Shown: one piece after another, positions 52,644-59,717 of the stretch | How the letters are laid out: each line of letters begins with the position of its first letter | How positions within the stretch are numbered: position 1 is the stretch's first letter | Position numbers and translations under genes: made by a program | Assembly (NCBI RefSeq): GCF_000337195.1 | Contig: NZ_AOID01000051.1 | Coordinates: 62,001 to 126,000, forward strand | DNA from: Natrinema versiforme JCM 10478 | Lineage (GTDB): Archaea > Halobacteriota > Halobacteria > Halobacteriales > Natrialbaceae | Length of the DNA: 64,000 nt | Reading direction: 5' to 3' | Notes under the pieces: generated by a model | What the model was told of the DNA's origin: nothing | What the model saw: only the letters and a program-made list of their open reading frames with translations | Databases searched by the model: none

Positions 52644-53051
52644 CTACGCGTCCGGAACGGCGTCTTTCGGAATGATGCCGTCGACGTCGGCACACAGGAC
52701 GTCCTCGCCGTCTTCGTTCGTACAGACCGCGGTGCTCTGGACGTCGTAGTACTCGTCGCGTTCGGTCACCGACTCGAGGCGACAGGTGCAGGTGATCCGC
52801 TCGCCGGTGTGGACCGGCTGGGCGAACTCGAACTCCATCCCGCGGGCGATGTAGTTGAGTTCGCCGCCGATCTCCGTCGGCAGCGTTGCGGTGAGCAACC
52901 CCTGTGCGGTCAGTCGTCCCGCCTCGTCCGGCTCGGTGTGGATCGGCTGCTGATCGCCCGATAGCTCGCCGAATTCTCGGACATCCTCGTGATCGAAGGT
53001 CCGCTCGACGGTGTACTCGTCGCCCTCCTCGGGCGGGTGTGAAACGTCCAT
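52644..53051 (-). CDS. MaoC-like hotdog protein
   Basis: A 135-residue hotdog-fold protein. TFDHEDVREFGELSGDQQPIHTEPDEAGRL carries the D-x-x-P-x-H hydratase motif, followed by FAQPVHTGERITCTCRLESVTERDEYYDV. It probably hydrates enoyl-CoA thioesters. It is smaller than the one at 19271. Transcribed in the same direction as the JAMM gene and separated from it by 71 bases. Confidence 0.85.
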   Translation of the reverse strand: MDVSHPPEEGDEYTVERTFDHEDVREFGELSGDQQPIHTEPDEAGRLTAQGLLTATLPTEIGGELNYIARGMEFEFAQPVHTGERITCTCRLESVTERDEYYDVQSTAVCTNEDGEDVLCADVDGIIPKDAVPDA

Positions 53052-54467: not shown

Positions 54468-56372
54468 ATGACGCGTGACTCCGCCGGGGAACCCGGCGCA
54501 GACGACGGGGATTCCGTCGTCTACGATCTCGCTTCCGATTGTACCGCCGACGATGTCGAGCAAGGCCGTTACTATCTCGCCGAAATCAACGGTATCGTCG
54601 ACTACGGCGTCTTCGTCGATCTCTCCGATTCCGTCTCCGGACTCGTCCACGAATCCGTCCTCGAGGGCACCTTCGCCGTCGGCGACGAACTCGTCGTCGA
54701 ACTCGAGAGTGTCAGAGAAAACGGCGACATGGCCTTCGAGCCGGCCGACATCGATGACTACGAGGTTGAAACGGTCGGCCACGACTACTCGCTGACCGGG
54801 ACCGACCGCCTCGAGAGCGCCATCGGCGAGCAGATCCACCTCGAAGGAACGGTCACGCAGGTCAAACAGACCGGCGGCCCGACGATCTTCCACGTCTCCG
54901 ACGAGCAGGGCGTCGTTCCCTGCGCTGCCTTCGAAGAAGCCGGCGTCCGCGCCTACCCGACCATCGAGGTCGGCGACGTCGTCCGGGTCACCGGCGCGCC
55001 CGAACACCGCGAGGGCTCGGTCCAGATCGAAGTCGACGGCCTCTCGAAACTCAAGGGCGAAGACGCCGCCGACGCCCGCGAGCGACTCGAGGACGCGCTC
55101 GACGCCCGCGCCGAACCCCACGACGTCGAGCCGCTGATCGACTGGCCGGCCTTCGAGAAGCTCCGCCCGGATCTGGAGGAGGTCGCCCGACTGCTCCGCC
55201 GAACGGTCCTCGAAGGGCGGCCGATCCGCGTGCGCCACCACGCCGACGGCGACGGAATGTGCGCCGCGGTCCCCGTCCAGATCGCGCTCCAGCGGTTTAT
55301 CGCCGATGTCCACGAAGACGAGGACGCACCGCGGCACCTCATCAAGCGGCTGCCGGCGAAAGCGCCGTTCTACGAGATGGAAGACGCCACGCGGGACCTG
55401 AACTTCGCGCTCGAGGACCGCGAGAAACACGGCCAGCAACTCCCGCTCTTGCTGATGCTCGACAACGGCTCGACGGCCGAGGACGTCCCGGCCTACGAGA
55501 CGCTGGCCCACTACGACATCCCGATCGTCACGGTCGACCACCACCACCCCGACCCGGAGGCGGTCGAGGACCTGCTCGACGCCCACGTCAATCCCTACCT
55601 CCACGACGAGGACTACCGGATCACGACCGGGATGCTCTGTGTCGAACTCGCGCGGATGATCTACCCCGATCTGGGCGACGAACTCCGCCACGTTCCCGCC
55701 GTCGCCGGCCTCTCGGATCGCTCGAAGGCCGACGCGATGGACGACTACATCGACCTCGCCGCCGCGGAAGGCTACGACGAGGACCGCCTGCAAGACGTCA
55801 GCGAGGCGCTCGACTACGCCGCCTTCTGGCTGCGCTACAACTCCGGCGACCAGCTGATTCAGGACCTGCTGCAGGTCGACGGCGACGACGAACAGCGCCA
55901 CCGCGAACTCGTGGACTTCTTCGCCGACCGCGGTCGCGAGGAAGTCGACGAGCAACTCGAGGCCGCGATGCCCCACCTCGAACACGAAACCCTCGAGAAC
56001 GGCGCTCACCTCTACCGGATTGACGTCGAGAACTACGCCCACCGGTTTACCTACCCCGCGCCGGGGAAGACCACGGGCGAGATCCACGACCGCAAGATCG
56101 AGGAGACCGGCGACCCGGTCATCACGGTCGGCTACGGCCCGGACTTCGCCGTACTCCGCAGTGACGGCGTCCGACTCGACATCCCGAACATGGTCTCCGA
56201 ACTCGAGGCCGAGATCGCCGGCGGCGGCGTCTCGGGCGGCGGCCACCTCGTCGTCGGCTCGATCAAGTTCGTCACTGGCCGGCGCGAGGAAGTGATCGAC
56301 GCCCTGGTCGAGAAGATGGCCGAGGCCGACATCGACGAAGCGCTCTCGAGTGCGGCCCCGATCGACGACTAA
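54468..56372 (+). CDS. RecJ-like DHH nuclease with S1 domain
   Basis: A 634-residue protein. An N-terminal S1 RNA-binding domain (YYLAEINGIVDYGVFVDLSDSVSGLVHES) and an OB-fold (GTVTQVKQTGGPTIFHVSDEQG) precede a DHH phosphoesterase: RHHADGDGMCAAV, MLDNGSTAED, VTVDHHHPD, then the C-terminal DHHA1 part ending GGGVSGGGHLVVGSIKF. Archaeal RecJ-like proteins (some called GAN) are 5'-3' exonucleases that act with GINS in replication or repair. The stop overlaps the foreign KAP gene stop by three bases. Confidence 0.9.
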   Translation: MTRDSAGEPGADDGDSVVYDLASDCTADDVEQGRYYLAEINGIVDYGVFVDLSDSVSGLVHESVLEGTFAVGDELVVELESVRENGDMAFEPADIDDYEVETVGHDYSLTGTDRLESAIGEQIHLEGTVTQVKQTGGPTIFHVSDEQGVVPCAAFEEAGVRAYPTIEVGDVVRVTGAPEHREGSVQIEVDGLSKLKGEDAADARERLEDALDARAEPHDVEPLIDWPAFEKLRPDLEEVARLLRRTVLEGRPIRVRHHADGDGMCAAVPVQIALQRFIADVHEDEDAPRHLIKRLPAKAPFYEMEDATRDLNFALEDREKHGQQLPLLLMLDNGSTAEDVPAYETLAHYDIPIVTVDHHHPDPEAVEDLLDAHVNPYLHDEDYRITTGMLCVELARMIYPDLGDELRHVPAVAGLSDRSKADAMDDYIDLAAAEGYDEDRLQDVSEALDYAAFWLRYNSGDQLIQDLLQVDGDDEQRHRELVDFFADRGREEVDEQLEAAMPHLEHETLENGAHLYRIDVENYAHRFTYPAPGKTTGEIHDRKIEETGDPVITVGYGPDFAVLRSDGVRLDIPNMVSELEAEIAGGGVSGGGHLVVGSIKFVTGRREEVIDALVEKMAEADIDEALSSAAPIDD

Positions 56373-59323
56373 GTTCCGAGTTGTTTCTTGAGTTTGGCTT
56401 TTCGGCTAGTAAACCAGACCTCTTCCTTGTTTAAATCAAGACTAGATTTTTCAGCTAATGAAGAACCATAATCACACCATTGGATTGCTTCATTAATATC
56501 GTTTTTCCGCACATATAGTACTACCATTCTCATTAACAGATCAATTCTCCGTTCTTCCAGGTCGAATTCCTCACAAATACCGAGTGCCTTGTTATATGAG
56601 GCGTGGGATTTTTCTAGATCTTCAATTTTCTCATATACTAGCCCAATATTATGGAGAGTATTAACCTCCCCAATATGATTTTCGTTCTTTATATGGCATT
56701 CGCGGCTTTTTCTATAAAAACTGAGTGCCTCTTCTAATCTTCCAGTTGATCTACAAATATGCCCTAATTTATTCAATAATTCTGCCACTCCCTTAATATC
56801 GCCCATCTCCCTCTTTATATCTAATTTTTCATGTAGGTTGTCTTCTATCGTGCTATATTGGTTTTTATTTCCATCAATCAAACCAAGACTATTTAGATGA
56901 TCTTTCAGACTAGGATTTTCTTTTAATTCTTCTTCTATTTTAAACGCAGTCCTAACTTGGTCTAGAGTAATCCACTGATCTTCATCAGTCACTTTTTCGA
57001 GATGGTTGACAATTTCCATAATCTCATCTATACTAGGATCTGGCATTGAATATTCTGTTAGGTTTGATTGTGTACCAATCCACTCGGTTAGAAGATCCGG
57101 CAGATCATTGGCCTCATCATTTTCTGTTACTTTTTCATATTTTCCTTCGGTACCCTCAAGCAAAAAGCAAACGTCCGTATCAGTACTATAGCTTGAGATC
57201 AACTCAGAAATTCCTGATATATGGGTCTGAAAGGGATCTTCAATAACGATAAGCATGGGGCTACTGTCTTGTTCTTTAGCTCTACTTATTGACTCATTCA
57301 GTATATTAATTTTATTACTAGTGATATTCTCAATATTATTTTCTTTTCTATAAAGTACATCTCCGGTTTCGTTTGATGTATACCATTCATAAGCAAGAAA
57401 ACGGCAAGTTGTGCTTTTACCAGATCCAGATCTGCCGGAAAGTATCACGCTATCTCCATTCAACAACGTATTGAATAGCTGACCCTTCCTTTTAGGCTCA
57501 CTACTATTATCATCTATATATGGCCGATCAAGAGTTATACCTGAAGCAATTTCTGCAAAAGAGAACGGACCATTCCCCCATTGAGTATGATCAATAGAAG
57601 ACTCAAAGTCGTTTTCTGAAAGCCATTTGAATCCATTTTCATTCAATTTTGAATATAATCCTTCCAATTCAGACACTTTTTCTTCATCTGTTAATGTGTC
57701 TTGATCCTCTGTTTTTGTTGGTTGATCAGTGCGTGGTGAAACCCAGAGCAGTTTTTCTACATCAACATCACGAACAGAATATTTAGGCATACTCCTGTCA
57801 TCACTACAGCCATATCTGAGCAATGTCGTCAATTCATCATTTTGGGTCCACGGCTGGATTTCTTTCTTAATATCTTGCTCATTATAATTACCTAGGGCAT
57901 GTTTTTCAAGATTGGCGAGTCCATCAGGATATGAATCTAATTGAGTAAGTAAACGGGGAGAATGTAGGCTAATAGCTACAAACTTCCCCAATTGTTGCAG
58001 CGTCAGACTATCATTTGTGTATTCTCCATCAGAGAATTGTACCATCCCCATCTCATATGCTAAGAGTGATCGGAGTCGATAAAGGTTTATAAAACGTATA
58101 ATTCTCCTAGGATTATGATTGAGGCAAGGTGCAACCATATCTATAACTTCATCTAGAACTTCTGAATGGTATTTTAACAAATCCTCTTCTATTTTATTTC
58201 TATTAGTCCCGCGATTAGGTTCTTGTTCTTTATTAATAAGGTGCTTAATGTTGTTGGTTTGAGCTGATGGAACAATAACAGGAATCTGGATGAACTTCTC
58301 AAGATACTGATGACCAAATCGAATTCCGCGATGATATGCATCTTTGTCTTCTTTTGAAGCGTTCTCACCTGCTATTGGTGTATCTTCTCGGTTGAGATAC
58401 GGAAGCAATTCCTCATATTGAGCGGCAAGCCCTGCAGCAGTTTTTTCTCGGTCTAAAGCAATGACAAAGGCAATCCGTGTGTCGTCAGTCAACATTAAGT
58501 TTATTGATTGCATTAATTGTGCTGCCTTAGAAACTTTACAACGATCTAGATCATCAATAAACACGTAGACACTATCATCACCAATATATGAATCTAAGAT
58601 ACGATCGAAGTCGTCGTGAAATTCATTAAGGAACGTTGACCTATCCTCATATTCTGGATTTGTCGCATACTCTTGCAGATTTGGATGGAGTGGGTTCAAC
58701 AATTGACTGCGAACTTGATCGATAACAGTTAAACCACCCAGGAGTGCTGCAATGATACCGCTACTCCCAACGAGAATTTCTACCAATCTTGTTCTTTGTC
58801 CTAAATCAATTGGAATTGGAATTGGATAAGATGAGATAAGAACTAATATAGATACTATTGCTAGCGCCAAAACAACAAATAGTGTCAAAATAGACCTTAT
58901 TAATTTGGTCTTTTTCGCATCTCGCACAAATCTATTCGAAAGTAATTTAATATCTCCACATAGTCGATTCTTTCGAGACTTCGATGACCGTACTTCACTA
59001 ACAAATACTTGTGCAAAAGAGGCCCATAGAGCTTCTTTATTCTCATATCGCCATGGGTTAAACTGGACTGTTGTCTCATCAGATTCAGCCAATTCTTCAT
59101 TTAACTGCTTCATAAAAGACGATTTTCCCGTACCCCATTCTCCTTCCACAGACATTGTAAGTGGGAATGATTCTTCAGATTTTATTAGAAATTCTTTAAT
59201 CACCCCCACATATTCATCAAATCCTAGATAGTCTTCTTCAGACGGTTGATCGTTAAGTGCACTAATCTTCGATGTAGACGACTCAGAGTCTGATTTGTCT
59301 GATTTTGTGTCGGCTACATTCAT
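56369..59323 (-). CDS. KAP-type NTPase with second P-loop module and TPR repeats
   Basis: A 984-residue AT-rich gene unlike every neighbour. Residues 1-32 are a Ser/Asp/Lys-rich lead. Walker A GEWGTGKSS (61-69) and Walker B VYVFIDDLDRC (252-262), with an FNPWRYE motif between, mark a KAP-family P-loop NTPase. Two membrane helices (about 143-166 and 181-202) lie between Walker A and B, as is usual for KAP proteins. A second P-loop GRSGSGKST (630-638), with a Walker B-like LIVIEDPF (691-698), follows. TPR-like repeats fill about 842-960. No start is better than 59323. The role is unknown; defence is suggested by architecture only. Confidence 0.85.
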   Translation of the reverse strand: MNVADTKSDKSDSESSTSKISALNDQPSEEDYLGFDEYVGVIKEFLIKSEESFPLTMSVEGEWGTGKSSFMKQLNEELAESDETTVQFNPWRYENKEALWASFAQVFVSEVRSSKSRKNRLCGDIKLLSNRFVRDAKKTKLIRSILTLFVVLALAIVSILVLISSYPIPIPIDLGQRTRLVEILVGSSGIIAALLGGLTVIDQVRSQLLNPLHPNLQEYATNPEYEDRSTFLNEFHDDFDRILDSYIGDDSVYVFIDDLDRCKVSKAAQLMQSINLMLTDDTRIAFVIALDREKTAAGLAAQYEELLPYLNREDTPIAGENASKEDKDAYHRGIRFGHQYLEKFIQIPVIVPSAQTNNIKHLINKEQEPNRGTNRNKIEEDLLKYHSEVLDEVIDMVAPCLNHNPRRIIRFINLYRLRSLLAYEMGMVQFSDGEYTNDSLTLQQLGKFVAISLHSPRLLTQLDSYPDGLANLEKHALGNYNEQDIKKEIQPWTQNDELTTLLRYGCSDDRSMPKYSVRDVDVEKLLWVSPRTDQPTKTEDQDTLTDEEKVSELEGLYSKLNENGFKWLSENDFESSIDHTQWGNGPFSFAEIASGITLDRPYIDDNSSEPKRKGQLFNTLLNGDSVILSGRSGSGKSTTCRFLAYEWYTSNETGDVLYRKENNIENITSNKINILNESISRAKEQDSSPMLIVIEDPFQTHISGISELISSYSTDTDVCFLLEGTEGKYEKVTENDEANDLPDLLTEWIGTQSNLTEYSMPDPSIDEIMEIVNHLEKVTDEDQWITLDQVRTAFKIEEELKENPSLKDHLNSLGLIDGNKNQYSTIEDNLHEKLDIKREMGDIKGVAELLNKLGHICRSTGRLEEALSFYRKSRECHIKNENHIGEVNTLHNIGLVYEKIEDLEKSHASYNKALGICEEFDLEERRIDLLMRMVVLYVRKNDINEAIQWCDYGSSLAEKSSLDLNKEEVWFTSRKAKLKKQLGT

Positions 59324-59393
59324 TAAATATACTGACTTTACTCACTGTACTCGTCATACATAACATTTTCCGGTTATAGATGCTGATTTGGGT

Positions 59394-59717
59394 TTAGAAC
59401 TGATAACGGCGCTCGTCGTCCATCGACGGATACTGGTCCGCACCGGTCATCTCCTCGAAGGTCATCCCCGAGAGGTACTCGTCGTAGGTCACGTCGTAGG
59501 CCGACCGCAGCTGGAAGTCGAACTTGCCGGTGTCGACGGTCGACTGAAAGAGCATGTGGATCGCCCGCCGGACGAGTTCGTCCGTCTCCTCGGGCTCGAG
59601 GGCGGCCTCGAGCAATGCGAGTTCGTTGCGCGTTTCGCGGTCCAGCGACAGCGACAACTCGTCGCCGATATCGGTGTACGACGCTGTCACGTCATCGTTG
59701 AGATCGTCGAGGCTCAT
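59394..59717 (-). CDS. Conserved haloarchaeal protein of unknown function
   Basis: A 107-residue acidic protein with helical segments (LSLDRETRNELALLEAALEPEETDELVRRAIHMLFQ). No motif or membrane segment is recognised. Base composition matches the haloarchaeal backbone, in contrast to the AT-rich gene 70 bases downstream. It reads in the same direction as that gene, so they could share a promoter, but the change in composition argues against an old operon. Confidence 0.7.
   Translation of the reverse strand: MSLDDLNDDVTASYTDIGDELSLSLDRETRNELALLEAALEPEETDELVRRAIHMLFQSTVDTGKFDFQLRSAYDVTYDEYLSGMTFEEMTGADQYPSMDDERRYQF

Follow-up and report, generated by a model that had tools for sequence, protein, structure and literature searches.

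A gene of foreign composition in Natrinema versiforme that joins a KAP NTPase to nSTAND5 and TPR modules, a candidate conflict protein

A chimeric gene in a variable slot

The window, the whole stretch of 64,000 nucleotides of Natrinema versiforme DNA analysed here, carries a gene of 984 codons in which a KAP-type NTPase is followed by a second P-loop module and by TPRs (Table 1). A preliminary description, made from the sequence, had proposed this arrangement, and each part was borne out by a Pfam match above the curated cutoff. KAP_NTPase (PF07693) matched with an E value of 5e-32 and 111.7 bits (cutoff 20), the best stretch covering residues 39-306 and a second stretch lying beyond it; nSTAND_NTPase5 (PF25199) matched at residues 624-723 (E 9e-13, 48.7 bits against 34); and the C-terminal repeat sensor was identified by TPR_12 at residues 846-919 (E 5e-14, 52.8 bits against 30.1). 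The Walker A and B pairs of both P-loops are intact. KAP proteins are defined by transmembrane helices inserted in the NTPase domain, and, as had been predicted, two hydropathy peaks (residues ~138-163 and ~178-202) fall between the KAP Walker motifs (residues 67 and 257), where the AF2 model likewise places two helices. The model is poor at residues ~560-820, as its alignment could include KAP relatives only, and we draw no structural claim there. The coding signature extends along the whole frame (GC1.49, GC2.34, GC3.29), and since shuffled versions gave at most 129 stop-free codons, the frame is far too long to have arisen by chance. Promoter and terminator scans gave nothing above chance level.

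Table 1. Coordinates of the gene, its parts and its flanks in the window
Feature	Position	Strand	Evidence
Chimeric gene, 984 aa, ATG start	56369..59323	-	ORF, Pfam, uniform GC3 0.29
KAP module, residues 25-540	57704..59251	-	PF07693; alignment with KAP-only proteins
KAP Walker A GEWGTGKSS, residues 61-69	59117..59143	-	Sequence; invariant positions in alignment A3
Membrane helix 1, ~residues 141-163	58835..58903	-	Hydropathy peak 3.29; AF2 helix 138-165
Membrane helix 2, ~residues 180-202	58718..58786	-	Hydropathy peak 2.17; AF2 helix 177-209
KAP Walker B VYVFIDDLDRC, residues 252-262	58538..58570	-	D257, D258, D260 and R261 invariant in alignment A3
nSTAND5 P-loop core, residues ~558-790, without downstream helical/winged-helix block	56954..57652	-	PF25199, core profile
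Second Walker A GRSGSGKST, residues 630-638	57410..57436	-	Sequence; invariant positions in alignment A2
Second Walker B MLIVIEDPF, residues 690-698	57230..57256	-	E and D invariant in alignment A2
TPR region, residues ~824-984	56372..56854	-	TPR_12; eight helices at 824-983 in AF2 model
Replaced slot between HAN nuclease gene and 107-aa gene, GC 0.37	56373..59393	.	Sister identity edges
Flank: Hef-associated nuclease (HAN) gene, convergent with KAP gene	54516..56372	+	NF053577, 1121 bits against 840
Flank: conserved 107-aa protein, unknown family	59394..59717	-	90-98% identical in congeners

The gene lies between two conserved neighbors. The stop codons of the HAN and KAP genes overlap; the gene for the 107-aa protein, which had no Pfam match, lies 70 bp upstream of the KAP gene on the same strand, with MutY beyond it. 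HAN was found in all 29 congeneric genomes searched and is 98% identical in the nearest sister (locus L094). Identity to this sister breaks off exactly where the HAN stop codon ends (56372) and picks up again within the stop codon of the 107-aa gene (59394); all 3.0 kb in between is different DNA. In the sister, a 115-aa gene (GC.47) shares the slot with a small zinc-ribbon-like ORF. Other congeners have a gene of 1244-1325 aa with an apparent twin-arginine signal at its N terminus (GC ~.67), a gene that reads as aldo-keto-reductase-like, or a small gene resembling the window gene at 52644, and in some the slot measures just 0.25-0.45 kb, making at least five different kinds of content across the genus (L094-L111). 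The slot is thus variable, and the gene is a cassette that took the place of the slot's contents. Most of the congeners' slots hold genes without any sign of a defence role, which counts against a defence reading.

The zinc-ribbon-like ORF, which ends in CPxCxGxLxxxYESLxCDDCGYTPRHGAD, is conserved in the slot of most congeners (positions ~93-267 of the L094 slot; also L096, L101, and L108-L111) and has been lost from the window genome. Shortening of the KAP-containing ORF by an insertion, its TAG stop lying within the HAN stop region, was considered and rejected, as its C terminus aligns with the C termini of several nSTAND5-TPR relatives (for example, residues 866-1074 of 1074 in L008 with 810-980 of the window protein; 693-916 of 922 in L057 with 791-976).

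The gene is strikingly AT-rich, as the preliminary description had stated, at 37% GC compared with ~61-72% elsewhere in the window. Its GC3 of 0.29, against 0.87-0.90 in the adjoining genes, points to a recent arrival, and this part of the description is strengthened by the exact replacement of a variable slot. GC3 is alike over all three modules, suggesting that the fusion predates or accompanied the arrival. Neither KAP nor nSTAND5 occurs a second time in the genome, which leaves no candidate donor there. It is highly improbable that an assembly error fused two genes here. The genome is a draft of 72 contigs and a second copy of the fusion is unknown, but the gene lies inside a 167,651-base contig with both flanks in the gene order of the genus, and the frame is open across the border between its parts with uniform GC3.

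Two modular parent families

The gene is a join of two separate modular families, KAP and nSTAND5-TPR. It captures an exchange of modules between two NTPase families of archaea, with sharply defined insertion boundaries.

One counterpart of the KAP part is a 590-aa KAP protein of genome G233 that has no tail and matches the window protein up to residue 572 (41% identity over residues 11-572). The window protein keeps 79 of the 88 conserved KAP columns, and it has the fold profile, the Walker motifs and the two intervening membrane helices of the family. Relatives sharing ~25-41% identity come from haloarchaea, Methanosarcina, cyanobacteria, Planctomycetota, Acidobacteriota, Chloroflexota, and others. 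In a tree of the KAP part, the window protein falls within a haloarchaeal group of 12 rows (SH-aLRT 96, by a quick method). Members of this group have no tail (G233), a haloarchaeal tail of ~155 aa, TPR arrays (Salinigranum, L142 and L145), a short TPR_12-type tail (G505, L197; 816 aa), or, in the window protein, the nSTAND5 and TPR tail; GUN4, FGE-sulfatase-like, and pentapeptide-repeat tails are found outside it. The labelled tails imply at least seven changes on the tree. The Salinigranum and G505 proteins thus share with the window protein both its KAP clade and C-terminal TPRs but have no P-loop module between the two, and no other KAP relative examined has a second P-loop module. The family as a whole is modular in archaea and bacteria alike, with C-terminal GUN4, FGE-sulfatase-like, pentapeptide or TPR parts (L120-L122, L125, L142, L145, and L197).

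A search for a conserved partner gene of KAP relatives found none that is general. In three haloarchaeal genera, though, the gene immediately upstream of KAP, on the same strand, belongs to the FtsZ family: Haloferax elongans, Halorubrum salinum, and Halolamina rubra (L112:8640-9797, L116:8659-9816, and L160:8756-9909). It is 78% identical between Haloferax elongans and Halorubrum salinum and is split into two ORFs in Halolamina, and an FtsZ-KAP pair is possible in these genera. Such a pairing would suit a housekeeping or envelope- or cytoskeleton-linked NTPase, in which KAP works at the membrane, perhaps with FtsZ-like partners. We consider this role quite unlikely for the window gene, as no FtsZ gene adjoins it, and as a very patchy distribution, tail swapping and foreign composition fit conflict genes better.

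The second parent family, haloarchaeal nSTAND_NTPase5-TPR (PF25199), resembles the window protein in its C-terminal TPRs and in a P-loop core that begins at about residue 558 of the latter. Within the order, 72 genomes had a match, most of them carrying proteins that match residues ~540-980 only. The N termini of the 25 nSTAND5-TPR proteins examined are of at least three unrelated kinds: a probably helical domain of ~175-200 aa and unknown nature (11 of the 25), a wHTH with FilR1_middle (10), and a Gly-rich domain of 239 aa (3). In the window protein KAP replaces these modules and occupies their position. The wHTH and FilR1_middle N termini (among L003, L005, L007, and L044-L063) suggest that the proteins carrying them are STAND-controlled transcription factors.

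Searched with a profile built from the cores of these relatives, the window protein gave a match at 1.2e-40 over residues 559-811. In STAND proteins a winged helix comes after the NTPase core, and the next 293-320 aa in the relatives hold, by our reading, such a helical and winged-helix region. A profile of this block matches 25 relatives and, even at an E value of 1, not the window protein; a search by hhalign for a hidden winged helix at residues 745-860 returned only a TPR-like alignment. The loss is internal, given that the C terminus aligns with those of several relatives. At the sensor-1 position the window protein has Thr725, whereas 96% of 26 relatives have Arg there. With the block absent and this Arg lost, a canonical STAND switch is unlikely. 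The claim of a separate STAND-like module therefore stands for the core, which PF25199 matches, and finds no support for a working switch. A 423-aa nSTAND5 protein on a plasmid of Halocatena marina (L004:4485-5756) is likewise devoid of the helical/winged-helix and TPR parts, so there may be other examples of a minimal core.

These features bear on an NLR-like interpretation, in which sensing falls to the TPRs, switching and oligomerisation to the nSTAND5 P-loop, and the N-terminal effector role to KAP. The intact second Walker A and B motifs, the core match and the placing of KAP where relatives have other N-terminal modules are in its favor; the missing block and the Arg-to-Thr difference speak against it, and we think it unlikely.

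No other full-length match was found in 125 genomes of the family, 392 of the order, three further haloarchaeal families, or 393 genomes of the phylum (these searches overlap). Plasmid records gave only partial (half) matches, and viral contigs and phage records gave no relative. A scan of genome contigs with the single protein had no match, and a pattern-based scan of ~85,000 species genomes with the KAP alignment gave 79 loci among the matches listed (best 80); a P-loop pattern search found no second P-loop in the tails of these 79. The layout of KAP, nSTAND5 core and TPR was thus not seen elsewhere among the genomes searched, and there was no sign of vertically inherited full-length homologues, which the preliminary description had named as evidence that would speak against it. 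Its view of the layout as uncharacterised holds for the full chain, although a membrane-inserted KAP is itself ordinary and KAP with C-terminal TPRs occurs in other haloarchaea.

Without a full-length relative, the gene could be a dead-end or decaying chimera, a passenger of random recombination with at most residual KAP activity. Its confinement to one genome among those searched and the block missing inside the STAND part fit this explanation, whereas the uninterrupted 984-codon frame, its strong coding signature and the intact catalytic motifs do not. Decay may, however, have had little time to set in, given the still foreign composition, and we leave the dead-end explanation a small but real share of the probability.

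A candidate membrane-anchored conflict protein

We favor, with moderate confidence, the view that this is a recently acquired, single-gene, membrane-anchored conflict protein, most likely directed against viruses, assembled from a complete haloarchaeal KAP and nSTAND5-TPR parts. In its favor are intact KAP motifs, swappable tails and N termini, replacement of the contents of a variable slot, foreign GC3 and profile matches to antiphage KAPs. The defence role, and with it a membrane-anchored KAP effector gated by a TPR sensor, is one that we infer from the likenesses to antiphage KAPs and from the STAND pattern of module swapping. The two helices would hold the AAA+-like KAP domain at the cytoplasmic membrane, and the C-terminal TPRs would bind a ligand derived from an invader or from damage. 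Binding might alter the nucleotide state of KAP and its oligomerisation, possibly into a ring, and the oligomer might then damage the membrane or stop the invader. ATP binding may persist in the second P-loop core, which is probably a linker or scaffold; perhaps it has been reduced to a linker, possibly a relic. Should the defence role be true, the gene would link poorly understood membrane KAP defences to the logic of sensor repeats and offer a haloarchaeal example open to testing.

A more elaborate and rather doubtful variant is a one-chain, two-NTPase immune receptor, in which the TPR sensor and a minimal STAND-derived core without a winged helix gate a membrane-embedded KAP ring, which would carry out the response. 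If that were true, the usual helical domains would be dispensable to STAND cores, with KAP serving as a membrane effector that can be plugged in.

Comparison with known defence systems

The nearest profiles with a named role are those of the antiphage KAPs QatA, PifA, and PDC-S20, and the PADLOC matches are confined to short stretches around the P-loop. For PifA and PDC-S20 there are two to three such stretches, the best covering residues 28-119 and 18-118 of the window protein, respectively. To our knowledge, neither PifA nor Tmn has a STAND core or TPRs. Tmn, an antiphage protein, is a single KAP NTPase carrying two TM domains (PMC11846954), and its likeness to the window protein, KAP with two TM domains, is a comparison of described anatomy alone. 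QatA shares the KAP NTPase but has another C-terminal domain, and its score of 96.1 (NF041923, cutoff 600) is below membership. Purified QatA is reported to form ring-sized oligomers, heptamers or octamers, and to bind DNA (PMC13279940). No qatB, qatC, or qatD lies nearby, the neighbors being HAN, the 107-aa protein and MutY; as the preliminary description had noted, the slot holds no partner gene.

In a Foldseek search with the AF2 model, the RdrA rings of RADAR, heptameric AAA+ assemblies, came first (E 2.6e-5), at a TM score of only ~0.2 and 12% identity, followed by Orc1/Cdc6 proteins. The resemblance to RdrA is a fold match only: RdrA is absent from the PADLOC matches, and the locus has no RdrB partner gene. 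No Avs (AVAST) protein was among the PADLOC matches at E values up to 1. Defence matches were scattered among the 85 genes flanking KAP relatives, in an uncontrolled PADLOC tally that carries no weight for a defence role. Elsewhere, KAP NTPases are among proposed antigen sensors (PMC10907252) and occur in a neighborhood with Orc/Cdc6 genes tied to anti-invader systems (PMC10853773).

Conflict proteins typically exchange parts around an NTPase (PMC9122126, PMC10907252), and antiphage STAND proteins with TPRs have swappable modules around theirs (PMC9122126). The window protein follows the order of the STAND-TPR antiphage proteins with TIR, SIR2, or nuclease effectors, namely N-terminal module, STAND NTPase and TPRs (PMC9122126), but has KAP instead of an enzymatic effector and an incomplete STAND module. 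Together with its relatives, it points to a modular design of KAP NTPases, a platform on which TPR, pentapeptide, FGE, GUN4, or STAND-derived tails can be mounted, in the way that STAND proteins exchange their effectors.
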